Source of the DNA: Spirochaetaceae bacterium
GTDB taxonomy: Bacteria; Spirochaetota; Spirochaetia; Treponematales; Rectinemataceae
Reading direction: 5' to 3'
Assembly (NCBI GenBank): GCA_025358255.1
Contig: JANYKC010000060.1
Span: 1 to 64,000 of the forward strand
Length of the DNA: 64,000 bases
This document shows positions 12,915 to 46,433 of this stretch, piece after piece. The position numbers and the translations under genes were made by a program. Each line of letters begins with the position of its first letter. Position 1 is the first letter of the stretch. A model generated the notes under the pieces. It did no database searches, was not told where the DNA came from, and worked only from the letters and a program-made list of their open reading frames with translations.

Positions 12915-13739
12915 ATGGCAGGGAGCGGGACGGCAGGGAGCGGGACGGCAGGGGAGATTGGCGCGCAGGGGCGGGCATTCCAGGCCCTCTATGACATCGT
13001 GGTGCGGCTCCGCGCCCCTGACGGCTGCCCTTGGGACCGCGAGCAGACGCCATCGACCATGCGCGGCGCCATCGTGGAAGAGGCCTACGAACTCGTGGAA
13101 GCCATCGATGAGGGTGATGCCGGGCACGCAGGCGAGGAAGCGGGGGACCTGGTCCTCAATACCACCATGGTCACCTACATGTTCGAACAGGAAGGCAAGG
13201 GCTCAGTGGCCAAGAGCCTGGACGAGACCTGCGAAAAACTCATCAGGCGCCATCCCCATGTCTTCGGCGACTCGAAGGCCGATACCTCGGAAAAGGTCCT
13301 TGCCCAGTGGGCCGACATCAAGGAGAACCTGGAAGGAAGGCGGAGGAAGGACTCCCTGCTGGACGGCGTCTCCAAGGCCATGCCCACCCTCGAGCGGGCC
13401 TTCAAGCTCCAGAAAAAAGCGGCCAAGGTGGGCTTTGACTGGAAGGAGATGCGCGATGTCTGGGCCAAGGCCCGCGAGGAGCTCGACGAGGCAGAGGAAG
13501 CCCTGGCCGAGGGATCGGATGCCCACTTCGAGGAGGAGCTCGGCGACCTCATCTTCTCCGTCGTCAACCTGGCCAGGAGCCACCATGTGGACCCGAGCCT
13601 GGCCCTGGCCCGCGCCAACGAGAAGTTCGTCCGGCGCTTCCACCATGTGGAGAAGCGCATGGCCGAGACAGGGCAGGCCATGACGCCTGAGAACCTCGGG
13701 ATCATGGATGGATTCTGGAACGAAGCCAAGGGCCATTGA
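12915..13739 (+). CDS. mazG: MazG nucleoside triphosphate pyrophosphohydrolase
   Basis: LRAPDGCPWDREQTPSTMRGAIVEEAYELVEAIDEGD...EELGDLIFSVVNLARSHHVDPSLALARANEKFVRRF. Confidence 0.92.
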   Translation: MAGSGTAGSGTAGEIGAQGRAFQALYDIVVRLRAPDGCPWDREQTPSTMRGAIVEEAYELVEAIDEGDAGHAGEEAGDLVLNTTMVTYMFEQEGKGSVAKSLDETCEKLIRRHPHVFGDSKADTSEKVLAQWADIKENLEGRRRKDSLLDGVSKAMPTLERAFKLQKKAAKVGFDWKEMRDVWAKAREELDEAEEALAEGSDAHFEEELGDLIFSVVNLARSHHVDPSLALARANEKFVRRFHHVEKRMAETGQAMTPENLGIMDGFWNEAKGH

Positions 13740-30351: not shown

Positions 30352-31638
30352 CTACCGCAGGTCCCTCCCGAAGGCCTTTTCCATCGCCTCGATCAAGGGC
30401 AGCTTCTTGCCCGCGAGGAAGCGCACCATGGCCCCGCCTCCCGTGCAGACGTAGTCATACTTGGCAAGATCCGTGAACTTGGCCGCCGCGCTGATGGTGT
30501 CTCCACCACCCACGACCGTGTATCCCGGGGCATCCGCAATGGCCCTCCAGATCTCGCGGGTGCCCAGTTCCCAACGGGGATCCTCGTACATCCCCGCGGG
30601 GCCGTTCACGAAGACCGACCCTGCCTTCCCGATGCTCGCCTTGAAGCGGGCTATCGTCTTGGTGCCCACGTCCGGAAACAGGCAATCCCCTGCGATGGCC
30701 GTCCCGGCCACGGCCGCTCCGGCCACGGCCGCTCCGGACATCCCGGGCAGGTCCAGTTCGGCGCGCCGGCCGCCATCGTCCCATGCAAGGTCGAGCGGGA
30801 GGACGAACTTCGATCCCCAGGAATCAAGCAAGGCCTTGGCCTCGGGGATGAATCCCTCGAGCCCTCTGTCCTTGAGGAATTTCCTCGTGGAGGCGCCCAA
30901 CTCCACACCGCGGGCCAGGTGCATCACGAGGCCTGTGACGCCCGCCGTCAGGATCTCGTCAGCGGCCCCGTCCTCAAGGACCTTGCGCATCATGTCAAAG
31001 GCGTCCGAGATCTTGGCGCCGCCCAGGACATAGACGCAGGGCCGCTTGGGGTTGTCCATCACGGTCTTGAGGGCTGTGTACTCTTCCATGAGCTGGAAGC
31101 CGCCGGCCGTGGGCAGTACTTCCTGGAAGGCGACCATGGACGGCGCGTTGCGGTGCGCCGCGGCGAAGGCGTCGTTCACATAGAGGTCGAAGAGGGGCGC
31201 CAGGCTCCGCACGAGCCAGGTGCCGAGCATCTCTCCGGGCTTGAGCTTGACCGCGCCCTCGAAGCAGGAAATCTCCTCGGCAAGGTAGCGGAGGTTGCCA
31301 AGAATGACCGCCTCGCCCTCCTTCAGCGCCTTGACCGCCGCCTGTGCCGCTGGGCCGCAGACATCGTCGATGTAGGCCACCTTGCGGCCACAGAGCGTGG
31401 CCAGCCTTTCGGCGTGCTCGGCCAGGGGGATGAGGTTCTGGTAGTCGAGGGTATCGCCCTGGTGGGCGATGATGGCCACCTTGGCCCCGCCATCGAGGAG
31501 CCTCAGCAGGGTCGGTATGGTCTTCTCGATCCTGTTGGTGTTGACGATCCTCTTCGTCGCCGGGTCGATCGGGGAGTTGATGTCCGGCCGGAAGAGCACG
31601 GTCCTTCCGGTCAGGGCGAACTCGGCGATCGGCCGCAT
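30352..31638 (-). CDS. pgk: Phosphoglycerate kinase, archaeal-like sequence type
   Basis: TVLFRPDINSPIDPATKRIVNTNRIEKTIPTLLRLLDGGAKVAIIAHQGD; VYVLGGAKISDAF; GGGDTISAA; C-terminal GGGAMVRFLAGKKLPLIEAM. Confidence 0.9.
   Translation of the reverse strand: MRPIAEFALTGRTVLFRPDINSPIDPATKRIVNTNRIEKTIPTLLRLLDGGAKVAIIAHQGDTLDYQNLIPLAEHAERLATLCGRKVAYIDDVCGPAAQAAVKALKEGEAVILGNLRYLAEEISCFEGAVKLKPGEMLGTWLVRSLAPLFDLYVNDAFAAAHRNAPSMVAFQEVLPTAGGFQLMEEYTALKTVMDNPKRPCVYVLGGAKISDAFDMMRKVLEDGAADEILTAGVTGLVMHLARGVELGASTRKFLKDRGLEGFIPEAKALLDSWGSKFVLPLDLAWDDGGRRAELDLPGMSGAAVAGAAVAGTAIAGDCLFPDVGTKTIARFKASIGKAGSVFVNGPAGMYEDPRWELGTREIWRAIADAPGYTVVGGGDTISAAAKFTDLAKYDYVCTGGGAMVRFLAGKKLPLIEAMEKAFGRDLR
30688..30732 (-). 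repeat. 15-bp tandem repeat x3 inside pgk, encodes AAVAG/AAVAG/TAIAG
   Basis: GCGGCCGTGGCCGGA units on the minus strand. Confidence 0.9.
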
Positions 31639-31640
31639 CC

Positions 31641-32678
31641 TTAGGACTGGGCCTTCCATTTCCCTATCCCCAGATACCCGTTGGTCGCGCCCGTGCCCTT
31701 GATGCGGTCTTCCTGCATCCTCATGGAGGCCCGGATGGCATCCATCGTCTCAGGGATCGTCACCGATTCCTGGGGGATGTTGATCGCGAACATCACGTCC
31801 TTCCCGCTCATCACGATGGAGTCCTCCCATGCCGCGATCTCGTACATGTCCCCGCGCGGGTTGCCCAGGTCGCGGGCGTAGCGGAAGAGGCTCGCGTTGC
31901 CGAGGAAGCCTTCCTCGATGGACACCATCCTGATGCGTGGGTGGTCGCCGAGGAATTCGCGCACGTTCTCGGGCGTGATGCCCTTTTTCGGCGTGGCCAG
32001 GACGGTGATGATGTGCCCATGCGTGACGGGCGTGTGCACGAGGATGCCGGTCGCCTCCACATGGGGCATGATGGTCATGAGGTCGAGTGCCTGGTGGCTG
32101 GGGGCGTGGTCGATCTGGAGGGCGTTCGTCAGTCCCCGGTGGTAATCGCCCGGGTCGGCGACGCGCCGGATGATCGTAATTGCAACTTTCTCGACCCCGA
32201 CGGCCCTGTCCAGGCAATCGACCGCCCTGATGAGGCCCGTCGTGTTGCAGCTGGTGAGCTTGAGGAACTGCGCTCCCAGGCCCTTCTCGTAGTTCGCGTA
32301 GCCATGGAAGAAGACATCGGCGACCGAGTTCTTCTCGCCGCCCTGGAAGATGCCCTTCTTGCCGTACTTGGCGTAGAGCTCCTTGTTCTTGGCTCCCACC
32401 CCGGCGTTGGTCGCGTCGAGCATGACGTCCACCTGCTGCACGAGGTCCTCGAGGCTGCCCGAGACCGGGATGCCGGCCTTGTCCAGGTCCGCGCGCTTTT
32501 CGGCGGCGGCGCAGTAGAGCTTGTAGGGCATGCCCTTCTCCTTGAGCGCCCGCACCGACAGGGTCGGCGCGACGTCGGCCACGCCCACAAGCTCCATATC
32601 CTTCTGCAACGCCACGCCGTCGGCAAGCCGCTGCCCTATCACGCCGTATCCGGCCACTCCCACCCGTACCTTTGCCAT
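31641..32678 (-). CDS. Type II (archaeal-type) glyceraldehyde-3-phosphate dehydrogenase
   Basis: VRVGVAGYGVIGQRLADGVALQKDMELVGVADVAPT...LKLTSCNTTGLIRAVDCLDR...RRVADPGDYHRG characteristic of the archaeal class. Confidence 0.9.
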   Translation of the reverse strand: MAKVRVGVAGYGVIGQRLADGVALQKDMELVGVADVAPTLSVRALKEKGMPYKLYCAAAEKRADLDKAGIPVSGSLEDLVQQVDVMLDATNAGVGAKNKELYAKYGKKGIFQGGEKNSVADVFFHGYANYEKGLGAQFLKLTSCNTTGLIRAVDCLDRAVGVEKVAITIIRRVADPGDYHRGLTNALQIDHAPSHQALDLMTIMPHVEATGILVHTPVTHGHIITVLATPKKGITPENVREFLGDHPRIRMVSIEEGFLGNASLFRYARDLGNPRGDMYEIAAWEDSIVMSGKDVMFAINIPQESVTIPETMDAIRASMRMQEDRIKGTGATNGYLGIGKWKAQS

Positions 32679-32691
32679 GATCGATTCTCCT

Positions 32692-34593
32692 TTACGCTTT
32701 TTCGGTCACAAGCCAGCCAAGGCCCAGTTCTCGGTATTTCGTGTCGGTCGGGTTTCCGCTCGCCGGATCCCAGCCCGAAAGTCGGTAATACTCCTCGCGC
32801 ATCCTCATGAAGTTCGCGCGGTCCACCTTGCGCCCCTTGCCCCTGCCCTCGTTCACGAGGGCGTCCTCGAAGAGCCTTTCGGGCAGGATGTCGTCCTTTG
32901 AATCGAAGCCCTCGCGCGCGTTGAAGGCCTTCATCATGTTGATCCTCCGTTCGCCGAGGAGCATGAACTCGTAGAGGGAGTAGTTCCAGCCGGTGGCCGC
33001 GTTCACCGCGTCCAGGAGCTCCTCGAAGCTGTAGATGGTCCAGGTGTGGAAGGTGAACTGGCAGACCGACATCGTATCGATGCCGCTCACGAAGCGCTGC
33101 GAATAGCACATGAGCTTCGTCTTCTCGTAGTCGAGGGTCTCGGGCAAGGGGACGGAATCGTAGAAGCCGAAATTCTTGAGGGCCTCCGAAGGCGCCACGA
33201 GGCAGCCGTCGTGCTCGGTGGACACGTGGTCGGGGCCGAAGGGGTTGACCGCGTAGGCAAGGGCCATGATGCCCTTGGAGGTGGGCATGTGGGCGGGGAA
33301 TTCCTTGTCCTTCACGGTGACGCAGATCCGCAGGGCGGCAGGGCCCAGGCTCCGCGCGAGGCGGGCCGTGCCTTCGGCCATCGCGTCGCCGAAGCCTGTC
33401 CGCGTGACCGTCATCTCTGCCAGCCTCACAAGGGCATCCCCCGAGCCGAAGCGCGCCTCGACGCCCCCGAGGTCCTCCGTCGTGATTATCCCCTTCTCCC
33501 AGCATTCCATCACGAATCCGATGACGCCGCCCAGGGCTATGGTGTCGACGCAATGCTTGCTCGCCAGCTCGTTGGCCTTGGCTATCGCGTTCATGTCGTC
33601 GACCATGCAGTTCGGCCCCAGCATGCCCAGGCTCTCGTACTCGGGCCCGCCGTAACGTGCTTCGATCCTCCAGGGGACCTCGATGCCCGGCTTGATGTCG
33701 CGCTTGCAGGACTGCGCGCAGGCCCAGCAGGTCCCTGGCTTATCCTCCATCATCGTCTCGTTGTAGACCTCGGCCGTCAGCTTGTCCACGCCGTCGAACT
33801 GGCCCATGGTCCAGTTGCGGGTCGGGAGGCCCCCGATCATCGAGTTCCAGGCCACGTTGAGGTTGGTGCCGTATCTCCTCCAGGCGGCGGCGCCTTCGTT
33901 CTCGAGGACCCTCTTGGCCCCCAGCTTGCCCAGCTCGGCGATGCGGCCGGGGTCGACGAAGTCAGGCTTGCCGGTGCCGCGCACCGCGATGGCCTTCAGG
34001 TTCTTCGAGCCCATCACGGCGCCCACGCCCGAGCGGCCGTTGAAGTGCTTGAGCTCGTTGACGATGCCGGCGTAGCGAACGAGCTTTTCCCCGGCAGGCC
34101 CGATGAGGGCCACGCGGATGCGGTCGTCCTTGAGCTCCGCCCGGATCGCGTCCTGGGCCTCGCCTGTCACCTTGCCCCAGATCGCCGCGGCGTCGCGCAA
34201 CTCGTACTTTCCGTCCTTGATCCAGAGGTAGACGGGCTTGGCGGCCTTCCCCGTGATCACGATGCCGTCAAAGCCCGCGAAGCGCAGCTCGGGGGCCCAG
34301 AAGCCGCCGGACTCCCCCGTGGCGAAGCCGCCGGTCTGGGGCGACTTGGTCGTCACGCAGTGGCGCGCGCTTCCGCTGACCGCGGCGCCGGTGATGGGGC
34401 CGAGGGTGAACACGAGCATGTTCCCGGGCGAGAGGGCGTCCACCCCGGGTCTCATGCCCTTGAGGAGGTACCAGGCGCCCATGCAACCGCCGCCGACATA
34501 CTTCCGGTAGAAGTCCTCGCCGGGCCTCTCCTCCTCGAACTTCCCCGACGTCAGGTCGACGTGGAGCATGACACCTGAATATCCTTTCATCAT
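32692..34593 (-). CDS. Aldehyde:ferredoxin oxidoreductase family (tungstopterin) enzyme
   Basis: YVGGGCMGAWYLL...GPITGAAVSGSARHCVTTKSPQTGGFATGESGGFW...GRSGVGAVMGSKNLKAIAVRG...CWACAQSCKRD cluster motif. Confidence 0.93.
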   Translation of the reverse strand: MMKGYSGVMLHVDLTSGKFEEERPGEDFYRKYVGGGCMGAWYLLKGMRPGVDALSPGNMLVFTLGPITGAAVSGSARHCVTTKSPQTGGFATGESGGFWAPELRFAGFDGIVITGKAAKPVYLWIKDGKYELRDAAAIWGKVTGEAQDAIRAELKDDRIRVALIGPAGEKLVRYAGIVNELKHFNGRSGVGAVMGSKNLKAIAVRGTGKPDFVDPGRIAELGKLGAKRVLENEGAAAWRRYGTNLNVAWNSMIGGLPTRNWTMGQFDGVDKLTAEVYNETMMEDKPGTCWACAQSCKRDIKPGIEVPWRIEARYGGPEYESLGMLGPNCMVDDMNAIAKANELASKHCVDTIALGGVIGFVMECWEKGIITTEDLGGVEARFGSGDALVRLAEMTVTRTGFGDAMAEGTARLARSLGPAALRICVTVKDKEFPAHMPTSKGIMALAYAVNPFGPDHVSTEHDGCLVAPSEALKNFGFYDSVPLPETLDYEKTKLMCYSQRFVSGIDTMSVCQFTFHTWTIYSFEELLDAVNAATGWNYSLYEFMLLGERRINMMKAFNAREGFDSKDDILPERLFEDALVNEGRGKGRKVDRANFMRMREEYYRLSGWDPASGNPTDTKYRELGLGWLVTEKA

Positions 34594-34633
34594 CGAACCT
34601 CCTCGAGACCCGGGAACGCCTGGCGCATCGGGC

Positions 34634-35656
34634 TCATCGTGCTTTCCTATGGGAGAGGAAATCTATGGATACGGCAAGAAGGAGGACGAGGCCGGTGACC
34701 AGGGACTGCCAATAGGGACCCACGTCAAGGAGGTTGAGCGAAGTCTGGATCAAGGCGAGGAGGGCGATGCCGAGGACGGCCCCGAAGATCGTCCCTTCCC
34801 CGCCGTTGAGGCTGGCGCCCCCGATGACTGCCGCCGATATCGCGTCCATGTTGACGGTCTCCGCCAAGGTGTTCGTAGCCGAGTTGAAGCGCGCGATCGA
34901 GAGTATCCCCGCGAAGGCAGCCAGGACGCCGACGAGCATGTAGACGCCCATGCGCACCTTGTTCACATCGATGCCGGAGAAGCGGGCCGCTTTTTCGTTT
35001 GAGCCGACATAGTAGATCTTCCGGATGATCGTCGACCTCCGCGAAAGGAAATCGAAAGCCACTGCCACCACGAGGAAGAGGACGATGACGAATGGGATGC
35101 CCGTGGACCCGATGATGCCCCGGCCGATGAACTTGAACTCCACTGGCATGCTCTGCAGGGGCAATGGCATGCCCTGGGAGACGACGTTGGCGATGCCGCG
35201 CGCCACCTGCATCATCCCGAGTGTCGTGATGAAGGGGGACAAGCCTATCTTCGTGATGAAGAGGCCGTTGATGGTGCCGATGACGAGGCCCAGGAGGAGC
35301 CCGACAAGGGATGCCAGCCAGATGTTCATGTGGAAGTTCAGGAAGAGGGTGCCGACCACGACACCCACGAGGGCCATGACGGAACCGACGCCCAGGTCTA
35401 TGCCTCCGGAGATGAGGGCAAGGGTCATCGCTATGACAACCATCCCGTTTATCGCGAAGCTCATGAACATGGTCCGGAAGTTGGCCGAAGTGAGGAAGTA
35501 GGGAGACAGGATGCCCATCATGATGCTCAGCCCGATGATGACAAGGATCGTCGTCCCTTCCCTGAAACTGCCCGGTTTCCGGAAAACCCTCTTAATCGCC
35601 GGCGATTGCGGATCGGCGATGCTTTCGACGTCCGCGGCTTTTCCCTTACGCATCAC
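34634..35656 (-). CDS. RbsC-like sugar ABC transporter permease
   Basis: ALISGGIDLGVGSVMALVGV...GLFITKIGLSPFITTLGMM...AVIGGASLNGGEGTIFGAVLG. Confidence 0.93.
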   Translation of the reverse strand: MMRKGKAADVESIADPQSPAIKRVFRKPGSFREGTTILVIIGLSIMMGILSPYFLTSANFRTMFMSFAINGMVVIAMTLALISGGIDLGVGSVMALVGVVVGTLFLNFHMNIWLASLVGLLLGLVIGTINGLFITKIGLSPFITTLGMMQVARGIANVVSQGMPLPLQSMPVEFKFIGRGIIGSTGIPFVIVLFLVVAVAFDFLSRRSTIIRKIYYVGSNEKAARFSGIDVNKVRMGVYMLVGVLAAFAGILSIARFNSATNTLAETVNMDAISAAVIGGASLNGGEGTIFGAVLGIALLALIQTSLNLLDVGPYWQSLVTGLVLLLAVSIDFLSHRKAR

Positions 35657-37182
35657 GCAACTCCTCTTCCATGGTTTTCCTGCTCTTCCGAGCTCAGGCA
35701 GGCCATCTGGACGATCGACCTCTCGTTGACCCCTCCGCCTTCCAGGACACCGCAGACGCTCCCCTCGTACATGACCGCGACCCGGTCGCAGACCCCGATG
35801 ACCTCGGGCAGTTCCGACGAGATCATGATCACGCCGATCCCCTCGGACGCGAGCCTCCGGAGGAGGTGGTAGATCTGGGCCTTTGCCCCGATGTCGATGC
35901 CCCGCGTCGGCTCATCCATGATGATTACCTTGGGCGCGACCGACAGGAGCTTGGATATGAGGACCTTCTGCTGGTTGCCGCCGGAAAGGCTGTTGACCTT
36001 CTGGCCCACGCTCGCGATCTTGATGAGCATCTCTCCCACGTAGCGTTGTGCGAGCCCGTTCTCGGCCTTCGCCTGGATGAGGGAGAGTTTTGCGACCTTG
36101 CCCAAGTCCATCACCGAGATGTTTTTCGAGATGCTCAGGTCCAGGAAAAGGCCTTCCAGGGCCCTGTTTTCCGTCAGGTACACGATGCCTTCCCGTATCG
36201 CGTCCCGGTAGTCGCGGATATGCAGTTCCTTTCCGCCCAGGCTCACCGTCCCTCCAGTCCTGCGCATGAGGCCGCAGATCGTCCTTGCGGTCTCGGTCCT
36301 TCCCGAGCCCACAAGGCCGGCGAAACCGAGGATCTCCCCCTGCTTGAGCGTGAAGGAGACATCCTTGAAGACACCCTTGCAGGCTAGCCCCTTCACCGTG
36401 AGGATGGCATCGCCGATCGTGCCCGGCGCGGCCTTGGCGGGATATATGTCCGTCAGGTCCCTGCCGACCATGCGGTTCACGAGGGCAACCTGGTCGAGGG
36501 CGGAGACCGCGTTGGTTTCTATGAGGTTGCCGTCACGGAGGATGGTGACCGTGTCGGCGATGCGGTAGATCTCGGCAAGGCGGTGGCTGATATAGAGGAT
36601 GCCGATCCCTTTCGCCTTGAGGGTTCCAATGATGCGGAACAGGACTTCGGTCTCGGACTCCGTCAGGGCCGCGGTCGGCTCGTCGAAAATGATGACCTTG
36701 CAGTTCACGGAAAGGGCCTTCACGATCTCTATGACCTGCTGCTGCGAGACGCCAAGCTCCCTTACTTTCTGCCGTGGATCGATATGGGCATGCCCCTCGA
36801 AATCGGCCAGGAGGCGCTTTGTCTCCTTGTAGATGTCCTGGAAATCCACGAAGCCGGGCCGGTTCAGGGCGGGCATGAATATGTTCTCCGCCACGCTGAT
36901 GTGCTGGCAGAGGGCGATCTCCTGGTGGACAAAGCCGATGCCCCTGCCCAAGGCGTCGCTGGGCGAGCGAAAGCTGACCTTCGTGCCCTCGAGGATGATG
37001 TCGCCCTCGTCGGGCTCGTATACGCCGCCGATCACGTTCATCAGGGTGGACTTGCCCGCCCCGTTCTCGCCGACCACCGCATGGACAGAACCGGGCGCCA
37101 AGGAGATGGTCACTCCATCGAGGGCCTGGGTCGCGAAAAACCTCTTGCGGATGCCCCGCACTTCCAGAATCGGTTGCGCCAT
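35653..37182 (-). CDS. RbsA-like sugar ABC transporter ATP-binding protein (two ABC domains)
   Basis: VVGENGAGKSTLMNVIGGVYEPDEGDI...IIFDEPTAALTESE...LSGGNQQKVLISKLLSVAPKVIIMDEPTRGIDIGAK. Confidence 0.95.
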   Translation of the reverse strand: MAQPILEVRGIRKRFFATQALDGVTISLAPGSVHAVVGENGAGKSTLMNVIGGVYEPDEGDIILEGTKVSFRSPSDALGRGIGFVHQEIALCQHISVAENIFMPALNRPGFVDFQDIYKETKRLLADFEGHAHIDPRQKVRELGVSQQQVIEIVKALSVNCKVIIFDEPTAALTESETEVLFRIIGTLKAKGIGILYISHRLAEIYRIADTVTILRDGNLIETNAVSALDQVALVNRMVGRDLTDIYPAKAAPGTIGDAILTVKGLACKGVFKDVSFTLKQGEILGFAGLVGSGRTETARTICGLMRRTGGTVSLGGKELHIRDYRDAIREGIVYLTENRALEGLFLDLSISKNISVMDLGKVAKLSLIQAKAENGLAQRYVGEMLIKIASVGQKVNSLSGGNQQKVLISKLLSVAPKVIIMDEPTRGIDIGAKAQIYHLLRRLASEGIGVIMISSELPEVIGVCDRVAVMYEGSVCGVLEGGGVNERSIVQMACLSSEEQENHGRGVA

Positions 37183-37199
37183 GATTGCCTCCCGGCGAG

Positions 37200-37232
37200 A
37201 AAAAAAGGCAGGGCCACGATCGACCCTGCCTT
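37200..37232 (-). terminator. Hairpin with T7 between the substrate-binding protein and ATPase genes
   Basis: Minus strand AAGGCAGGG-loop-CCCTGCCTTTTTTT. Confidence 0.75.
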
Positions 37233-37265
37233 CCCTTTCGCCATTCTAGTTCGGGCCTGCCCGCA

Positions 37266-38291
37266 TTACCAGCCGACGAAGGCCTTGGACGAGCGGCGCT
37301 TGAGCCAGTCGTTCGTGTTGAAGTACTTGGTGCTTCCCTTGGTGATCAGGTCGAGGCCGTTGTCCACGTAGGGAAGGGAGAGGAGATAGTCGCCCTTCGC
37401 GGCCGCGGCGTTGAGGGGATCGACCATCTGGTTCTTGGTGAGGTAGAGGATCATGAAGGAGAGGTAGCCCTGCATGTAGGCGTTCGGCTGGATGGCGCCG
37501 AGCATCTGGTCCTTCTCGATCATCTCAAGGATGGCAGCGTCGAAGTCGCAGCAGATCACCTTGATCTTCCCGCCGAGCTCGGTCGCGGCCTGGGCCGCGG
37601 CTCGGCCAGAGGGGCCTTCGGGGCTGAAGATGCCGGCGAGGTCGGGGTTCTTCTGGGCTATGGCCATGATGCCGGCATAGGTCTTGTTGGAGTCCTGCTG
37701 GGAGAGGAGCTCGGCGACCACCGTGATGTTCGGGAACTCTTCCTTGATGACCTTGATGAAGGTGTTGACACGGATCTGGTGGTTGGTCTGGGTGTTGCGG
37801 GTTACCATGACCTTGCCCTTGCCGCCGATCGCCTTGGCGAGGGAACGGGCGGCGAAGGCGCCTTCCTTCTCGTTCGAGGAGGTCACGAAGCCGACCTTGG
37901 CCGTGCTGGTGTCGCTGGCGAAGGTGACGACGGGAATCTTCTTGCCCATGGCGGCGTTGACCGGTTCGATGAAGACCGCGTCATCGATGGGGCTCAAGGC
38001 TATGCCGGCCGGGTTCTTGGCCATGATCTGCTCGAAGGCCGTGACCTGTTTGGGACCGTCGTATTCGGTCGTGCCCTGGTAGACGGCCTTCACGCCCATC
38101 TGCTTGGCGGCGTCCTTGAAGCCCTCGAATGCGGCGACCCAGTACTCGACTCCCGACACGAAAGTGCACATGTAATAGGTCTGGTCGGCAGGTCCTGAGA
38201 ACTTCTTGTTCTGGACCTGGGCTGCAAGGGTCCCCGCAGCGAGTAGGCAGAGCACGAGAAGGATCGAAATGATCTTCGTTCGCTTGAGCAC
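37266..38291 (-). CDS. RbsB-like periplasmic sugar-binding protein
   Basis: GTG-start signal peptide; TYYMCTFVSGVEYWVAAFEGFKDAAKQMGVKAVYQGTTEYDGPKQVTAFEQIMAKNPAGIALSP. Confidence 0.92.
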   Translation of the reverse strand: MLKRTKIISILLVLCLLAAGTLAAQVQNKKFSGPADQTYYMCTFVSGVEYWVAAFEGFKDAAKQMGVKAVYQGTTEYDGPKQVTAFEQIMAKNPAGIALSPIDDAVFIEPVNAAMGKKIPVVTFASDTSTAKVGFVTSSNEKEGAFAARSLAKAIGGKGKVMVTRNTQTNHQIRVNTFIKVIKEEFPNITVVAELLSQQDSNKTYAGIMAIAQKNPDLAGIFSPEGPSGRAAAQAATELGGKIKVICCDFDAAILEMIEKDQMLGAIQPNAYMQGYLSFMILYLTKNQMVDPLNAAAAKGDYLLSLPYVDNGLDLITKGSTKYFNTNDWLKRRSSKAFVGW

Positions 38292-38530
38292 AATAGGCCT
38301 CCTGAAGATTACCGGCGCACTATCGGCGTCAGTTCTTGGATGCAGTGTGCAACAGCTATCAGGATCTGTCAATGTTTATTTTACATATAGATATTGATTT
38401 TGATATAACGAATGCTAGATTGACTCTTTGACCAAACGTGGTATCATTTCCCGGGGTTATGGCGAGATCTGGCGACATTTTCGGGAAAAAAGGCGCAGAA
38501 TATGCTGCCAATGGTATATAGCTACTTTTT

Positions 38531-39802
38531 ATGGAGGCGATCATGAACGGAAAAGAACGGATCAGGCTCGCTCTGGCTCACAAGGAAGCCGACCGGGTTC
38601 CGGTGGATTTTGGCGGCTGCGCCCAGACGACGATCCAGGTCGGCGTAATTGCCGCACTTAGGGACCATTTTGGCCTGGAAAAACGAAAGGTCATCGTCGA
38701 AGAACCCTACACCATGATGGGAAGGATGGACGAAGACCTCAAACAGGCCATGGGATGCGATGTCGATGCCCTCAACCTCCTCCACACCTTCTTTGGCAAC
38801 AGCCGGAAGGACTGGAAGGAATTCCGCATGGAGGATGGCCTGGAAGTCCTCGTCCCCGGCGATTTCAATGTCACCCGGGATGAAAGAGGTGACATCCTCA
38901 CCTATCCCGTGGGCGACACCACCTGCCCGCCGAGCGCCAGGATGCCCAAGGGCGGCTATTACTTCGATGCCATACTCCGCCAGCACCCCATCGATGACGA
39001 GAAACTGAGGGCGGAAGACAACCTGGAGGAGTTCGGGGCCTTGAGTGGGCCGGAACTGGATTTCCTGGTCGAAGGCCTCAAGGAGCAGGCTAAAACCGGG
39101 CGTGCCGCCTTCGGCGTCGTCCCCGGAGCCGGCCTCGGCGACATTGCCTGTGTCCCGGCACCATGGATGAAGGACCCCAAGGGCATCCGCGACATCGAGG
39201 AATGGTACGTCTCGACCGCCATCAGGAGGCCCCTCCTCCACGAGATATTCGATCGCCAGACCGATATCGCGATCCTGAACCTGGAAAGAATCAACCAGGC
39301 TGTGGGCAAGGACATGGATATCGCGTGGATCTGCGGAACGGACTTCGGGACCCAGACCTCAACCTTCTGCTCCCTGGCCACCTACAAGGAGCTTTACGAG
39401 CCCTATTATAGGAAGGTCAACGGCTGGATCCACCAGAACACCTCCTGGAAAACCTTCAAGCATTGCTGCGGGGCCGTAGAGACTTTTATGGAAGCCTTCA
39501 TCGAGTCGGGTTTCGACATCATCAATCCCGTCCAGTGGACCGCGAGCGGCATGGACCCCTTGCTCCTGAAAAAGCGTTACGGGGACGCCTTGGTGTTCTG
39601 GGGCGGCGGCGTGGATACCCAAAAAACCCTCCCCTTCGGCAGCCCCGCGGAAGTCCGGGCGGAAGTCTTGCGGATCTGCGAAATTTTCGCCCCAGGCGGT
39701 GGCTTTGTATTCAATACGGTCCACAACATCCAGGCAAATACGCCTGTGGCCAACATCGTCGCCATGCTGGAAGCCCTGGATGAATTCAATGGCCGAACCT
39801 GA
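38531..39802 (+). CDS. Uroporphyrinogen decarboxylase-like (URO-D/MtaA-like) protein
   Basis: NGKERIRLALAHKEADRVPVDFGG N-terminus and KHCCGAVETFMEAFIESGFDIINPVQW core. Confidence 0.85.
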   Translation: MEAIMNGKERIRLALAHKEADRVPVDFGGCAQTTIQVGVIAALRDHFGLEKRKVIVEEPYTMMGRMDEDLKQAMGCDVDALNLLHTFFGNSRKDWKEFRMEDGLEVLVPGDFNVTRDERGDILTYPVGDTTCPPSARMPKGGYYFDAILRQHPIDDEKLRAEDNLEEFGALSGPELDFLVEGLKEQAKTGRAAFGVVPGAGLGDIACVPAPWMKDPKGIRDIEEWYVSTAIRRPLLHEIFDRQTDIAILNLERINQAVGKDMDIAWICGTDFGTQTSTFCSLATYKELYEPYYRKVNGWIHQNTSWKTFKHCCGAVETFMEAFIESGFDIINPVQWTASGMDPLLLKKRYGDALVFWGGGVDTQKTLPFGSPAEVRAEVLRICEIFAPGGGFVFNTVHNIQANTPVANIVAMLEALDEFNGRT

Positions 39803-40736
39803 GAACCACTCTCCTCTTGACCTCAGCGAAGACGATGGAGTAGCCTTATTTCCATACTCCATAAAGAACCAACCTGAGGAGCCCAACCTGGCAAAGAATG
39901 ACACATCCAAGAAGGAACAGCGGGAATACTCGGCTCCGGCCGTGGATAGGACCCTGGACATCTTCGAATTCATGGCCAGGAACCCCCGCCCCTACGGGGC
40001 CACCGAGCTGTCCCGGGCGCTCAATGTGCCGCTGAACTCCATCTTTCGCATCCTCAAGCGCCTCACGGAGCGGGAGTACACGGTCCAGGATCCCGCATCC
40101 GGCGGATACCAGCTCTCCACGCGGGTCTTCACCCTCGGGATGAGCCTATATACCCGCTATGAGCTGCGGCAACGCGCCCGCCCCCACCTTGAATGGCTTT
40201 GCCGAGAGACGGAGGAGACCTGCCAGATCCAAGTGGCAAGGGGCGAAAAGCTCCTTGTCCTGGACACGATCAGCCCCGAAGTGGAGTTCTATCTCCGGGT
40301 CGTGCCCGGAAGCCTTGTCTACTATCATCCGAGCGCCTTCGGCAAGGCCATCCTCGCTTTTGAGGATGAGGATCGGGTCAAGGAAATGCTGCCGCCCCGC
40401 CTCCCCGTGCTCACCCCGAAAACCATCCAGCTCAGGGCCGAGTTCATCGAGAGCCTTGCGGCGACTCGGGCTACCGGCCTTGCCTATGACGACGAGGAAT
40501 ACACGACCGGCATCCTCTGCATTGGAGCACCGGTCTTTGACGTGACCGGCAAGGTGGTCGCCGGGATCGGCATAACCGGCCTCATCGGCACCTACGGCAA
40601 TGGAAAGAAGCCTATTTTCGAGCGGCTCGTCCTGGAATGCGCAATGCGGCTTTCCAAGGACATCGGGTATCCAGGGGACTTCTTCAACGACAAGCTCAGC
40701 TCGACCATGGAAAGCCTCCCCAGAAAGCCTTCCTGA
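39789..40736 (+). CDS. IclR family transcriptional regulator
   Basis: SAPAVDRTLDIFEFMARNPRPYGATELSRALNVPLNSIFRILKRLTEREY...YHPSAFGKAILAF. Confidence 0.93.
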   Translation: MAEPENHSPLDLSEDDGVALFPYSIKNQPEEPNLAKNDTSKKEQREYSAPAVDRTLDIFEFMARNPRPYGATELSRALNVPLNSIFRILKRLTEREYTVQDPASGGYQLSTRVFTLGMSLYTRYELRQRARPHLEWLCRETEETCQIQVARGEKLLVLDTISPEVEFYLRVVPGSLVYYHPSAFGKAILAFEDEDRVKEMLPPRLPVLTPKTIQLRAEFIESLAATRATGLAYDDEEYTTGILCIGAPVFDVTGKVVAGIGITGLIGTYGNGKKPIFERLVLECAMRLSKDIGYPGDFFNDKLSSTMESLPRKPS

Positions 40737-40761
40737 ACGAGGACCACCTCGGAAATTCAAA

Positions 40762-40785
40762 CCCCTCCTCACGGAGGGTTTTTTA
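40762..40785 (+). terminator. Intrinsic terminator after the iclR-type gene
   Basis: CCCTCC-tcac-GGAGGG followed by TTTTTT. Confidence 0.75.
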
Positions 40786-40798
40786 TTTATAAAATAAG

Positions 40799-40816
40799 TG
40801 TTCCACCTATAGAACA
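40799..40816. promoter_or_regulatory. Candidate IclR-type operator TGTTC-N8-GAACA
   Basis: Inverted repeat in the gap between the iclR-type and Fe-ADH genes. Confidence 0.35.
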
Positions 40817-40977
40817 ATATGATTGACATTCTACATATCACATGTTAATACTACCTGTAAAATAGCTGCTGATACAGTTTGCATGGAGCAGTGAGCGACC
40901 TCGATGACGCGGCGTCGCCGTTTTCCTCGAGGGAGAAAGCGACCCGACATGGGTCCATGACTACAGGAGGGCGCATA

Positions 40978-42144
40978 ATGATCAGGGACTTCAGCTTCTT
41001 TATTCCCGTAAAACTCGTTTTCGGCGAAGGCAAGCTTGCGGCCGCCGGCGAAGAGGTCAGGGTCCTGGGGAAAAAGGCCCTCATCGTCACGACCGGCGAC
41101 CTTTTCAAGAAAACCGGCCTTGTGGACCGCCTCGTCGCCAACCTCACCGCGAGCGGCGTCCAATCCGCCTATTTCTCCGACCTCTCCCCCAATCCCCTCC
41201 ACACCGAGATCGACGCCGCCGCGGCCTTCGGCAAGAAGAACGGCTGCGACGTCATGATAGGCCTCGGCGGCGGCAGCGCGATCGACGCGGCCAAAGGCGC
41301 GGCCATCGCTATCGGCCATGACCGGCCCATCTGGGATTTCTGCATGGGACCTGACCAGGCTGCCATCACCGCCAAGACCCTCCCCGTCGTCGCGATAACC
41401 ACGACCGCAGGCACCGGGAGCGAAGGGACCCAATGGGCAGTGATCACCAACAAGGCGACCCTGGAAAAACCCGGCATCGGTTCGGACTATACCTTCGCCC
41501 GGGTAGCCATCGTCGATCCCGAGCTCATGGCCTCCATGCCGCAGAAGATCACGGCCTCCACGGGCTTTGACGCCCTGGCCCATTCCATTGAAGCCTACAC
41601 ATCAACCCTCGCCACGCCCATCACCGACATGTACTGCGAAAAGGCCATCCGCCTCATCGGCAAATACCTGCGCAGGGCGGTCAAGGACGGCAACGACAAG
41701 GAAGCTCGCAACGGCATGGCCCTGGCGAACACCTTGGGCGGCTTCTCCATCGCGGTGGCCATCGTCACCGTCTGCCACGGCCTGGCCCATTCGGTGGGAG
41801 GCGTAGCGAACACGACCCACGGCGAGAGCCTGGCGGCCATGACGCCCCAGACGATGCGTTTCTCCATGCGGGGAAACCCCGACAAGTTCAAGAACATCGG
41901 GATGTTCCTCCGGGACGAAGTCGTCAATGTCGGACAGGATCGCCTCGAGGATTCCGTGCGCGAAGTCGAGCGACTCATCGCGGACGTCGGGCTAGCCAAC
42001 GGCCTTGCCAAGCAGGGCGTCAAGGTGACCGACATCGAGAGGATAGCCGAGGGTGTCATACGCTACATGGGTGGATCGATCACCATAGACCCGATGAACC
42101 CGGGACGTGACGACCTCATCGGGATCCTCAAAAAATCCATGTGA
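40978..42144 (+). CDS. Iron-containing alcohol dehydrogenase
   Basis: GLGGGSAIDAAKGAAI...TTTAGTGSEGTQWAVI...GFDALAHSIEAYTS...CHGLAHSVGG. Confidence 0.93.
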   Translation: MIRDFSFFIPVKLVFGEGKLAAAGEEVRVLGKKALIVTTGDLFKKTGLVDRLVANLTASGVQSAYFSDLSPNPLHTEIDAAAAFGKKNGCDVMIGLGGGSAIDAAKGAAIAIGHDRPIWDFCMGPDQAAITAKTLPVVAITTTAGTGSEGTQWAVITNKATLEKPGIGSDYTFARVAIVDPELMASMPQKITASTGFDALAHSIEAYTSTLATPITDMYCEKAIRLIGKYLRRAVKDGNDKEARNGMALANTLGGFSIAVAIVTVCHGLAHSVGGVANTTHGESLAAMTPQTMRFSMRGNPDKFKNIGMFLRDEVVNVGQDRLEDSVREVERLIADVGLANGLAKQGVKVTDIERIAEGVIRYMGGSITIDPMNPGRDDLIGILKKSM

Positions 42145-42149
42145 CGGCC

Positions 42150-43034
42150 ATGAACGACGCCTGGGCATTCGAGCATGTGCTTTCGGCGGGGAACCAGATC
42201 GGCGAGGCGCCGATCTGGGTTCCCGAGGAAGCCCGGCTGTATTGGGTGGATACCGAGGCTTCCGCGGCCTACTCCTTCCGGCCCCGCGACCGGGAATCCA
42301 GGAGCTGGCCGTTGTCGATGCCGGCGACCGCCATGTTGCGGCGTCGAGGCGGAGGCTGGGTCCTGGTCACCAAGAAGGGCCTTGCCTTCTGGGACCAGGT
42401 TTCCGGCGCCTGCGAATTCATCGTCGATCCCGTGGCGGAGAATCCCGACCTCTGTTTCAACGATGGCGCCGTGGACCGCCGTGGCGCGATCGTCGCGGGC
42501 ACCATGAACTTCAGGGAACACAGGAGGCCCGACGGCCAGGTCTTCCGCCTGGGGACTGGGCTCGGCCTTTCCTGCCTGGCGGGCGGACTCTCGGTGGCCA
42601 ATGGCATCGGTTTCAGCCTGGACGGCAGGACCATCTACGTCTCCGAGCAATTCGCGGGCCGGATCCTCGCCTGGGACTATGACCAGGAGGATGGCAGCCT
42701 CGGGAACAAGCGAGTCTTCGCGACGGTCCCCGACGACGAAGGCCTGCCTGACGGCATCATCGTCGACGCCGAGGGCTTTGTCTGGAACGGCCGCTGGGGC
42801 GGAGGCCGCATCGTCCGCTATGCGCCTGACGGCAGCGTCGACCAGGGCTGGCGCCTTCCGGTCGATACGGGGACCTCCATGGCTTTCGGCGGCGAGGACC
42901 TGGGCGACCTCTATGTCACCACCGCGTGGTACGGCCTGGACGAGGCGGGCAGGAAGTCCAGACCCCAATCCGGCGACCTTTTCAGGTTGAGGCCGGGCGT
43001 CAAGGGAACCGTGGAACCCAGGTTCGCGGGCTAA
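42150..43034 (+). CDS. SMP-30/gluconolactonase family protein
   Basis: IGEAPIWVPEEARLYWVDTEA...PDGIIVDAEGFVWNGRWGGGRIVRYAPDG. Confidence 0.9.
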   Translation: MNDAWAFEHVLSAGNQIGEAPIWVPEEARLYWVDTEASAAYSFRPRDRESRSWPLSMPATAMLRRRGGGWVLVTKKGLAFWDQVSGACEFIVDPVAENPDLCFNDGAVDRRGAIVAGTMNFREHRRPDGQVFRLGTGLGLSCLAGGLSVANGIGFSLDGRTIYVSEQFAGRILAWDYDQEDGSLGNKRVFATVPDDEGLPDGIIVDAEGFVWNGRWGGGRIVRYAPDGSVDQGWRLPVDTGTSMAFGGEDLGDLYVTTAWYGLDEAGRKSRPQSGDLFRLRPGVKGTVEPRFAG

Positions 43035-43051
43035 AGAGGCAGGAGCAAAGC

Positions 43052-43831
43052 ATGAAGGGAAAAAGCGACCTGACTTTCGACTTCAGCGGCAGGACCGCCA
43101 TTGTCACCGGGGCCACGAAGGGCATCGGGAGGGACATAGCCCTCGCCCTTGCCGCGGCAGGCGCGACCGTAGCCGCCACGGGGAGGAACGCGGAGGAACT
43201 GGCCTCCCTCGCGCGGGAGATACAGGCCTCGGGCGGAGCGTGCATCGTGTACCCGGCTGACCTGGCGAAGGCCGGGGACGCCGTGGCGATGGCCGAGCAC
43301 TTTTGCGCCGCCCTGGGCAGGGTGGACATACTGGTCAACAACGCAGGCATCAGTTTCCCTGAACTCCTCGTCGACCTCGACATCGACCATTGGGACACGA
43401 CCCTGAACGTAAACCTCCGCGCGCCGGCCCTCGTCACCAAGGTGGTCGCCCGGGGCATGATCTCGGCAATGAAAGGCATAATTATCAATATTTCAAGCAA
43501 CGCCTGCATGGCAGGCATCGACGCCCACGCCGCCTATTGCGCGAGCAAGTTCGGCCTCGATGGCCTGACCAAGGTCATGGCCTGCGAGCTTGGGCCGCAC
43601 GGCATCCGGGTGAACGCGGTCGCGCCCACCGTCGTGCTGACGCCGATGGGCACCCAGGTCTGGGGCGACCCGGCCAAGGCCGCCCCCGTCAAGGCGCGCA
43701 TCCCCCTCGGGCGCTTCGCCTTGCCCTCCGAGATCACGGGCGCCGTGCTTTTCCTGGCTTCCGACGCCGCATCGATGATACACGGCGAAACACTGCTCAT
43801 AGATGGGGGAGTCAATGCCAAGCTCTACTGA
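43052..43831 (+). CDS. SDR family oxidoreductase
   Basis: TAIVTGATKGIGRDIALALA...ILVNNAGIS...YCASKFGLDGLTK. Confidence 0.93.
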   Translation: MKGKSDLTFDFSGRTAIVTGATKGIGRDIALALAAAGATVAATGRNAEELASLAREIQASGGACIVYPADLAKAGDAVAMAEHFCAALGRVDILVNNAGISFPELLVDLDIDHWDTTLNVNLRAPALVTKVVARGMISAMKGIIINISSNACMAGIDAHAAYCASKFGLDGLTKVMACELGPHGIRVNAVAPTVVLTPMGTQVWGDPAKAAPVKARIPLGRFALPSEITGAVLFLASDAASMIHGETLLIDGGVNAKLY

Positions 43832-44561
43832 AAAAAAGACCGCCCTGGTCACCGGCGCCGCCGGGACCCTGGGCCTGACCGTCACCAAGGCCCTCCTTGG
43901 CAAAGGCCACCGCGTGGTGATGGCCGACATCGACCAGGCAAGGCTGGACGAGCTGGCTGCGGGCCTCGGACCCGACGCCTTCCCCATCGCCTTCAACCTG
44001 GGCGACGCGGCAGACGTGGCGCGGGCCTGGAAGACCATCGAGGATAAGTTCGGCGGAGTCGACATACTCGTGAACAACGCCGGCATCCTCACGAACAACA
44101 AGGTCGAGTCGACGAGCCCGGAGGAATGGCAGCGGGTGATGAACATCAACGTCAACGGCGTGTTCTACCTGACCCAGCTGGCCGTTCCGGGGATGAAACG
44201 CAAGAGATGGGGGAGAATCGTCAACACGTCATCGCTGGCGGCCAAGTCCGGCGGCATCACGGCGGGGACCGCCTATTCCACATCCAAGGGCGCCATCATC
44301 TCCTTCACCTTCTCCCTCGCCGCGGAGCTGGCCGCCTTCGGGATCACCGCCAACGGGATAGCGCCCGCATATGTCCGGACACCCATGGTGACCGCCCAGC
44401 TCAATGACCAGCAACGCGCCGACGTGATCGCCAAGATCCCCGTGGGGCGCTTTTGCGAACCGGAGGAATTCGCCCATGTCGTGCTTTTCCTCGTGGATGA
44501 GCTTGCGGGATTCATCACCGGAGAGATAATCGACCAGAATGGCGGCCTGCATTTCGACTGA
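43815..44561 (+). CDS. SDR family oxidoreductase
   Basis: ALVTGAAGTLGLTVTKALLGKGHRV...ILVNNAGIL...YSTSKGAIISFTFSLAAEL. Confidence 0.93.
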   Translation: MPSSTEKKTALVTGAAGTLGLTVTKALLGKGHRVVMADIDQARLDELAAGLGPDAFPIAFNLGDAADVARAWKTIEDKFGGVDILVNNAGILTNNKVESTSPEEWQRVMNINVNGVFYLTQLAVPGMKRKRWGRIVNTSSLAAKSGGITAGTAYSTSKGAIISFTFSLAAELAAFGITANGIAPAYVRTPMVTAQLNDQQRADVIAKIPVGRFCEPEEFAHVVLFLVDELAGFITGEIIDQNGGLHFD

Positions 44562-44581
44562 TGACGGGGAGAATGAGACAC

Positions 44582-45478
44582 ATGAAAGCGGAAAGAATAG
44601 CCGAGCTTGAGAGGATCGCGAAGGAAATCCGGAAACTGACCATCGACGAGATCGGCTACCTCGGAGTGGGCCACATCGGGGGCGCCATGTCAGTCGTGGA
44701 AGTCCTGACCCTCCTCTACCACGAGACCATGCGCGTGGATCCAGGCTATCCCCGGGATCCAGACAGGGACTGGCTTGTCCTCTCCAAGGGACACGCGGGA
44801 CCGACCCTCTATGCCACCCTGGCACTCAAGGGCTTCTTTCCCAAGGACTGGCTCCACAGCCTCAACAAGGGCGGAACCAAGCTCCCGAGCCATTGTGACC
44901 GCAACCTGACCCCGGGCATCGACATGACCACGGGTTCCCTCGGCCAGGGCTTCTCCGCGGCCATGGGCATAGCCTTGGGCCTGTCGATGGAAGGCCGGAA
45001 ATCCACGGTCTACGCCATCATCGGGGACGGCGAATCGGATGAGGGACAGGTCTGGGAGGCGGCGATGTTCGCCGCGCACCGCAAGCTCTCCAACCTCATC
45101 GCCTTCACCGACTTCAACAAGCAGCAGCTGGACGGCACCACCAAGGACATCCTCGACCTTGAATCGCTGGACGACAAATGGCGCGCCTTTGGCTGGTTCA
45201 CCCAGCGCGTCGACGGCCACGACATGGCCGCCCTGGACAAGGCCATCCAGGCAGCCAAGGCCCAGGCGGGGCGCCCTTCGATGATCGTCATGGACACCAT
45301 CAAGGGAAAGGGCTGCAACTTCGCGGAAGCCCTCCTGTCCAACCACAACATGAGCTTCGGCATGGACGAGGCAAGGGCGGCCATCGCCGCCCTCGGCGGC
45401 GCCGCCCTCGGCGGCGATGCCCTCGGCGGCGATGCCCTCGGCGGCGATGCCCTCGGCGGCGATGCCCTCGGCGATTGA
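44582..45478 (+). CDS. Transketolase, N-terminal (ThDP-binding) subunit
   Basis: GYLGVGHIGGAMSVVEVLTLLYHETM...SKGHAGPTLYATLALKG...GSLGQGFSAAMGIAL...GDGESDEGQVWEAAMFA. Confidence 0.93.
   Translation: MKAERIAELERIAKEIRKLTIDEIGYLGVGHIGGAMSVVEVLTLLYHETMRVDPGYPRDPDRDWLVLSKGHAGPTLYATLALKGFFPKDWLHSLNKGGTKLPSHCDRNLTPGIDMTTGSLGQGFSAAMGIALGLSMEGRKSTVYAIIGDGESDEGQVWEAAMFAAHRKLSNLIAFTDFNKQQLDGTTKDILDLESLDDKWRAFGWFTQRVDGHDMAALDKAIQAAKAQAGRPSMIVMDTIKGKGCNFAEALLSNHNMSFGMDEARAAIAALGGAALGGDALGGDALGGDALGGDALGD
45389..45475 (+). repeat. 15-bp tandem repeat (GCCCTCGGCGGCGAT), ~6 units, encodes ALGGD at the extreme C-terminus
   Basis: AALGGAALGGDALGGDALGGDALGGDALGD*. Confidence 0.95.
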
Positions 45479-45491
45479 AGGAAGGGAAAAC

Positions 45492-46433
45492 ATGGAAAGC
45501 AAGGAAATGCGAGCCGCGTACGCGGATACCCTCATCGAGCTGGCCACCACCAACCGCGACATCGTCGTCCTCGAGGCCGACCTGATGCGCGCCACCGGAA
45601 CGGGATCCTTCCAGAAGCTCTTCCCGGACCGCCTCGTCAATGTCGGCGTCGCCGAGGCCAACATGGTCGGCGTTGCCTCCGGATTGTCGGCCACGGGCAA
45701 GATACCCTTCGCCTCGACCTTCGCCTGCTTCGCGTCCCGCCGCGTCTTCGACCAGTTCTTCCTATCGGCGAATTACGCGCGCCTCAACGTGAAGCTTGTG
45801 GGCACGGATCCCGGCGTCACGGCCGCCTACAACGGCGGCACCCACATGCCCTTCGAGGACCTTGGACTCATGCGCACGATCCCGGGCCTCACCATCGTGG
45901 AGCCCTCCGACCCCGCCTCATGCGCGGCCTTTGTCCGCCTCGCCGCGGCGATGTACGGCTGCGTCTACCTTCGCCTGCCCAGGAAGGCCGCGGCCTTCCT
46001 CTACCCCGCCGGCGAGAAGTTCGAGTTCGGCCGCGCCAAGCGCCTCAAGGAGGGGAAGGACCTTGTGTTCGCCGCCCTCGGCTCCCTCATGGTCGGGGAA
46101 TGCCTCAAGGCGGCGCAGGTCCTCGCCGGCGAGGGCGTGGAGGCAGGTGTGGTCGATGTCCTGTGCCTCAAGCCCCTGGACGAAGTGACGATACTCACCG
46201 CGGCCAAGGCCACCGGCAGGATCATCAGCGCCGAGAACCACCAGGTGATGGGCGGACTCGGCAGCGCCATCGCGGAACTCCTCGCGGAGCATCGCTTCGG
46301 TGGCGGCTTCAAGCGCATCGGCATACGGGACGAGTTCGGCGAGGTCGGCACCCAGGACTACCTCGTGAAGCGATTCGGCCTCGGCGCCCCGGACCTCGCC
46401 GATGCGGCAAGGAAGCTCATGAAGGAAAGCTGA
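45492..46433 (+). CDS. Transketolase, C-terminal subunit
   Basis: MRAAYADTLIELATTNRDIVVLEADLM...FPDRLVNVGVAEANMVGVASGLSATGKIPFASTFACFASRR. Confidence 0.93.
   Translation: MESKEMRAAYADTLIELATTNRDIVVLEADLMRATGTGSFQKLFPDRLVNVGVAEANMVGVASGLSATGKIPFASTFACFASRRVFDQFFLSANYARLNVKLVGTDPGVTAAYNGGTHMPFEDLGLMRTIPGLTIVEPSDPASCAAFVRLAAAMYGCVYLRLPRKAAAFLYPAGEKFEFGRAKRLKEGKDLVFAALGSLMVGECLKAAQVLAGEGVEAGVVDVLCLKPLDEVTILTAAKATGRIISAENHQVMGGLGSAIAELLAEHRFGGGFKRIGIRDEFGEVGTQDYLVKRFGLGAPDLADAARKLMKES

Follow-up and report, generated by a model that had tools for sequence, protein, structure and literature searches.

The window analysed here, 64,000 nt of contig JANYKC010000060.1, carries on its minus strand (30352-38372) an operon in which, from the 5' end, a sugar ABC importer is followed by a putative aldehyde:ferredoxin oxidoreductase (AOR), a type II glyceraldehyde-3-phosphate dehydrogenase (GAPDH-II) and an archaeal-like phosphoglycerate kinase (PGK). 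From comparison with related loci, the last two enzymes are probably an accessory pair in which energy is conserved from an aldehyde acid rather than from glyceraldehyde-3-phosphate (GAP), within a full inositol-to-malate scheme of which the window locus would be a variant. With somewhat more reserve, we lean towards a widespread inositol branch in anaerobes, in which transketolase, GAPDH and PGK chemistry would act on carboxylate mimics of xylulose-5-phosphate, GAP, 1,3-bisphosphoglycerate and 3-phosphoglycerate, giving ATP without a sugar kinase and D-malate, with the AOR-bearing window locus as a variant feeding in a second sugar. The operon is composed as follows.

30352..31659, minus strand: accessory PGK-family kinase, proposed malyl-phosphate:ADP phosphotransferase (PF00162, E=3e-97, 326.5 bits)
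31641..32678, minus strand: type II GAPDH-family dehydrogenase, proposed phosphorylating malate-semialdehyde dehydrogenase (TIGR01546, NF003251)
32692..34593, minus strand: predicted tungsten-type AOR (AFOR_N, E=4e-73; AFOR_C, E=5e-105)
34634..35656, minus strand: sugar ABC importer permease (PF02653)
35653..37182, minus strand: sugar ABC importer ATPase (PF00005 twice; xylose/arabinose/ribose-type models)
37266..38372, minus strand: importer sugar-binding protein (PF13407, E=3e-47; start codon uncertain)

The open reading frames (ORFs) for PGK, GAPDH and AOR were all intact and gave strong family matches, and the annotations of the original prediction were borne out by the Pfam, TIGR and AFOR models. 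The operon-like array that it had described was also confirmed: AOR and GAPDH are spaced by 13 nt, and the GAPDH and PGK genes have 19 nt in common, from which co-transcription of the three genes is probable. All gaps and overlaps between the importer ATPase and PGK were 40 nt or less, and the array is extended upstream by the sugar importer (34634-38372). The GAPDH scored 302.9 bits against TIGR01546 (cut-off 232.9) and 405.5 bits against NF003251 (cut-off 185), and every solved GAPDH that it matched was an archaeal type II enzyme. PGK was above the PF00162 cut-off, contained the D-x-N, HR and GGGD motifs, and was closest to the solved Pyrococcus structure 2cun (255 bits; runner-up 173), in agreement with the archaeal-type class that had been assigned to both proteins.

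Residues were compared between 70 bacterial GAPDH-II sequences and four archaeal GAPDH structures. The catalytic Cys of the SCNTT motif (C144), H222, R171 and R172 were kept in all 70 and in the four structures. The switches fixed in 70/70 included K35 to Asp and H196 to Gln (PSHH to PSHQ, with H195 kept), and a test for the archaeal coenzyme lysine and the PSHH motif failed in every one of the 70. We take K35 and H196 to be the coenzyme and substrate-site positions, respectively, of the archaeal enzymes; Asp at the former usually accompanies NAD rather than NADP. In the GAPDH tree, the 70 bacterial sequences, which span about five phyla, formed one clade separated by a long branch from the four archaeal ones. 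Within this clade, the window copy nested among those of spirochaetes. Acquisition from archaea, as the original prediction had proposed, is therefore unsupported as a recent event, and a recent archaeal donor was rejected on this nesting and on the absence of any archaeal record from the best 80 relatives. The clade may have an ancient archaeal origin; because only four archaeal sequences were in the tree, the donor and the direction of transfer cannot be named.

The GTDB species collection was scanned with the window GAPDH, which yielded 217 relatives, and neighbourhoods were compared for the best 80 of these 217 loci, the window locus and a second locus of the same genome on contig C59, a total of 82. 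The best 80 loci showed 74-88% identity over their best segments and represented Spirochaetota, Bacillota, Chloroflexota and Atribacterota, together with records that are classified as Myxococcota; PGK adjoined GAPDH in these loci, and 66 of the 68 scorable pairs were no more than 200 nt apart. The neighbouring genes fell into clusters for PGK, LarA, IolG, IolD, IolE, IolB, the N- and C-terminal transketolase subunits (TKn and TKc), malic enzyme, sugar importers and an Asp/Glu-type racemase. Since many loci lie close to a contig end and a simple gene caller was used, the counts of neighbours are lower bounds: at least 42 of the 82 loci contained IolD, 40 transketolase, 51 LarA and 30 malic enzyme, and a malate racemase or malic enzyme gene was present in 34 of the 42 IolD loci. 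Eight of ten LarA proteins tested from the relatives passed the cut-off of the malate racemase model (LarAH6, NF052593). The most complete arrangement is illustrated by Clostridium magnum (L049), where importer, malic enzyme, GAPDH-II, PGK, TKn, TKc, IolB, IolD, IolE, IolG and LarA lie in one array, with IolE and IolG over their own cut-offs and LarA over that for malate racemase. A second Clostridium magnum locus (L043) combines a pyruvate dehydrogenase complex, malic enzyme, GAPDH-II, PGK and LarA, with no inositol genes. The Asp/Glu-type racemase gene stands by the pair, alone or with LarA, at L046, L048, L073, L074, L079 and L083, and it is possible that it encodes a second kind of malate racemase.

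The product of iolC is needed to send inositol carbon to dihydroxyacetone phosphate and GAP. Among 17 carrier genomes, 16 contained an IolD over its cut-off and only two (G007 and G013) an IolC over its own; in both of these, iolC adjoins an iolD other than the GAPDH-linked one. Within the family of the window genome, GAPDH-II and IolD were both present in 12 of 30 genomes, both absent in 12 and each alone in three, an agreement in 24/30 that ignores kinship and includes fragmentary matches (a partial GAPDH in G041 and a partial IolD in G045). Type I GAPDH was also found in 18 of 20 carrier genomes, and an ordinary, higher-scoring PGK in 19 of the 20; a role of the pair as a glycolytic replacement was rejected, ordinary GAPDH and PGK being present in nearly all carriers.

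From gene content, conservation, family membership, patterns of presence and absence and the residue switches, we infer the following reactions for GAPDH-II, PGK and transketolase. At the inositol loci, IolG, IolE, IolD and IolB would make 5-dehydro-2-deoxy-D-gluconate (DKG). This compound is D-xylulose-5-phosphate with CH2-COO- replacing CH2-OPO3, and its ketose end is D-threo, as transketolase requires. The split transketolase would take carbons 5-6 of DKG as a C2 unit and leave (R)-3-hydroxy-4-oxobutanoate (malate semialdehyde), which would serve as a carboxylate mimic of D-GAP. With NAD and phosphate, GAPDH-II would convert malate semialdehyde to malyl-1-phosphate and NADH, and PGK would then form D-malate and ATP. 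The stereochemistry of DKG would make D-malate the product, and a racemase would therefore be needed; malate racemase would supply L-malate, and malic enzyme would convert this to pyruvate.

The window genome assembly (4.14 Mb, 99 contigs, 95% complete) contains two further GAPDH-PGK pairs. An ordinary gapA-pgk pair, for which a search had been suggested as a check, was found on contig C44, and its PGK (L014:7759-9021) has an insert and carries Asp where an Arg normally contacts the phosphate (SHLGDP). The second type II pair, on C59, is 82% (GAPDH) and 75% (PGK) identical to that of the window; it follows an iolD over the equivalog cut-off and an IolE-like gene and precedes larA, whose product has the malate racemase Mar2 as its nearest solved structure. 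The genome has a single LarA over 100 bits and a single malic enzyme, the latter 70% identical to a pair-linked malic enzyme elsewhere.

Several observations weigh against the proposed scheme. The LarA of C59 reached 361.8 bits, under the cut-off of 500 for the malate racemase model NF052593, although this was still its best model. The window locus is without an iol, larA or malic enzyme gene, and the only larA and malic enzyme of the genome sit on contigs other than that of the window. The association counts for the 82 loci ignore kinship among genomes; no transketolase was seen nearby in 13 of the 42 IolD loci, at many of which contigs end or gene calls failed, and about ten Clostridia loci have GAPDH-II and PGK without inositol or malate genes. 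In PGK, the equivalent of animal-PGK R65 is Asp in 61 of 72 sequences and never Arg or Lys, and the ordinary PGK on C44 also has Asp there; the change was dropped as proof of an altered substrate because the ordinary enzyme of the genome shares it.

Divergent from the importer-AOR-GAPDH-PGK operon, and conserved together with it, is a plus-strand operon with a split transketolase (38531-46433), with the following genes.

38531..39802, plus strand: URO-D/MtaA-like protein (PF01208; 74-79% conserved in two other genera)
39699..40736, plus strand: IclR-family regulator (PF01614, PF09339; start uncertain, overlaps the URO-D-like ORF)
40879..42144, plus strand: iron-containing alcohol dehydrogenase (PF00465; 82-87% identity in two other genera)
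42141..43034, plus strand: SMP-30/gluconolactonase-like lactonase (PF08450, E=1e-70)
43052..43831, plus strand: short-chain dehydrogenase (SDR) 1 (GolD/DthD, glucose 1-dehydrogenase and gluconate 5-dehydrogenase models; start inferred)
43803..44561, plus strand: SDR 2 (PF13561, PF00106)
44561..45478, plus strand: transketolase N-terminal subunit (transketolase models; clusters with TKn of inositol loci)
45492..46433, plus strand: transketolase C-terminal subunit (PF02779, PF02780; start inferred, ORF opens at 45417)

Both operons recur in the same gene order in G027 and G183, and the variant is kept in three genera; genes of the divergent operon were 67-87% identical to those of the window, and the two AORs 80% and 69%. 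The lactonase and SDRs suggest that a sugar is oxidised to a keto-aldonate. Under the proposed scheme, the window would carry the pair a second time, in a related locus for the catabolism of an imported sugar, which would be oxidised by the SDRs and lactonase and cleaved by the split transketolase of the locus; the resulting aldehyde acid would be oxidised by GAPDH-II and PGK, and AOR would oxidise the same or another aldehyde of the route with ferredoxin. The AOR-linked GAPDHs formed no single clade in the GAPDH tree. The AOR-linked GAPDH of Treponema sp. UBA12037 was 99.1% identical to its iolD-linked counterpart, and over 2.4 kb, from the GAPDH start through PGK, DNA identity between the two GAPDH-PGK pairs was about 95%. 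This is best read as recent copying of the pair from one operon to another, with both contigs coming from one binned genome in which a binning error is possible. It follows from the near identity that the AOR-linked and inositol-linked pairs probably share a reaction.

The AOR contained the AFOR_N and AFOR_C domains; its Fe-S cysteines (C289, C292, C296 and C511, for the 4Fe-4S cluster) and the cofactor-near E318 and H456 align with those of 1aor, which together with 9mqx was the closest solved structure, both being general AORs. By family it would be a tungsten-type aldehyde oxidoreductase, one of six AOR-family genes in the window genome. The original prediction had entertained an archaeal-type GAP:ferredoxin oxidoreductase (GAPOR), an identity that was rejected on a score of 30.9 bits against the NF040818 cut-off of 1300. 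A further AOR-transketolase linkage was observed at L135 (G116:C78, 6047-11898), where two AOR-family genes are accompanied by a split transketolase and a small ORF, with no GAPDH-II in the stretch read.

Three other explanations were considered, of which the nearest to the original prediction of parallel triose oxidation is that the pair supplies an additional lower-glycolysis module, in which GAPDH-II and PGK would oxidise GAP to 3-phosphoglycerate while AOR would provide a ferredoxin bypass as in Pyrococcus. The family assignments are consistent with this, archaeal homologues perform such chemistry, and GAP could be a product or a substrate of transketolase within that same pathway. It is nevertheless improbable: ordinary GAPDH and PGK are encoded in nearly all carriers, the C44 pair of the window genome among them, the AOR fails the GAPOR model, fixed switches lie around the archaeal substrate site, iolC is missing in 15 of 17 carriers, and the pairs of relatives sit with genes for inositol catabolism, transketolase, malate racemase and malic enzyme.

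Another substrate at the window locus, tartrate semialdehyde or a similar compound, is somewhat less unlikely but still doubtful. Here transketolase would act on a 5-keto-aldonate formed by the lactonase and the gluconate-5-dehydrogenase-like SDRs, the pair would lead to tartrate-type acids, and AOR would oxidise glycolaldehyde or another by-product. A lactonase, two SDRs and a transketolase do occur together in the conserved divergent operon, and cleavage of 5-keto-D-gluconate by transketolase to tartaric semialdehyde was proposed earlier (Salusjarvi 2004, as cited in PMC7970118); against this, the SDR models are unspecific, no tartrate genes were seen nearby, and the near-identical copies in UBA12037 favour a substrate shared with the inositol locus. 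A narrower suggestion, which concerns the AOR step only and is compatible with the inositol-to-malate scheme, is that AOR shares its aldehyde with GAPDH-II and PGK, the outcome being either reduced ferredoxin or NADH and ATP. The same operon order in three genera and the retained catalytic and Fe-S residues make this a tentative possibility, whereas AOR was present in just 3 of the 82 GAPDH-II/PGK loci, and AORs are in general broadly specific, so that linkage does not name the substrate.

Other features were recorded beside these loci. In small-genome Clostridia (L045, L054, L064, L066, L069, L070, L071, L077 and L085), GAPDH-II and PGK have FAD oxidoreductase-like genes and genes for ABC exporters as neighbours, and neither inositol nor malate genes were seen there; phosphoglycerate mutase was rejected as a partner of the pair in Clostridia loci, the neighbouring clusters resembling FAD oxidoreductases. 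No corrinoid protein was recognised among the annotated genes neighbouring the URO-D/MtaA-like gene, and no tRNA genes or Rfam matches were found within the 64-kb window. Tandem repeats of 9-21 bp recur across the genome, several in frame within genes. Their sites in the window are 2980-3214, 4408-4455, 9136-9204, 12917-12953, 24206-24320, 30704-30737 and 45389-45473, a further repeat lies near 3-100 of L013, and gene-internal sites include PGK, the transketolase junction and the N-terminus of the C59 IolD.

The proposed inositol-to-malate route shares the IolG, IolE, IolD and IolB steps to DKG with the canonical myo-inositol pathway (iolGEDB-CJA), and three equivalog models were matched. It differs in that 15 of 17 carriers are without the iolC kinase; transketolase, GAPDH-II and PGK would replace kinase, aldolase and IolA, ATP would be gained at the stage where the canonical pathway spends it, and malate would be formed, not malonate semialdehyde. 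The bacterial GAPDH-II shares its fold family, catalytic Cys, His and both Arg with the archaeal enzymes of M. fervidus (1cf2) and P. horikoshii (2czc), whereas the bacterial clade is changed at coenzyme and substrate positions and is accessory to a type I enzyme. Likewise, the accessory PGK keeps most basic-patch residues of its nearest solved relative, the archaeal 2cun, and differs from it in having H-Q-G-D-T-L-D-Y-x-N for H-Q-G-K-P and in accompanying an ordinary PGK. The window AOR is in the same superfamily as Pyrococcus GAPOR, with a model score far under the cut-off. The earlier proposed cleavage of 5-keto-D-gluconate by transketolase (Salusjarvi 2004, as cited in PMC7970118) involves the same bond and the same type of 5-keto acid as the proposed transketolase step, which differs in its 2-deoxy substrate, dedicated split enzyme and subsequent phosphorylating oxidation. 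Most LarA proteins of the relatives pass the model of the malate racemase Mar2 (LarAH6), the cellular role of which was left open (PMC7583248), and two malate racemase papers, PMC7583248 among them, made no mention of inositol. A large iol survey scored iolB, iolC, iolD and iolE as core genes and did not mention transketolase (PMC9430895). In a search of the open-access literature, with subscription journals and preprints mostly outside it, no description of an inositol-malate pathway through transketolase, GAPDH-II and PGK was found.

If the scheme is correct, the glycolytic GAPDH and PGK labels given by family models would be wrong in many anaerobes, metabolic models of such genomes would hold a false glycolytic step and miss an inositol route, and the iol survey (PMC9430895) could have under-counted or misread that route. 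The LarAH6 malate racemases would gain a cellular role, a point left unsettled at their discovery. The reading can be tested in cultured type strains, Clostridium magnum for example, and the pair would represent a clear case of adjacent glycolytic enzymes moving jointly to a new substrate, with phosphate swapped for carboxylate.

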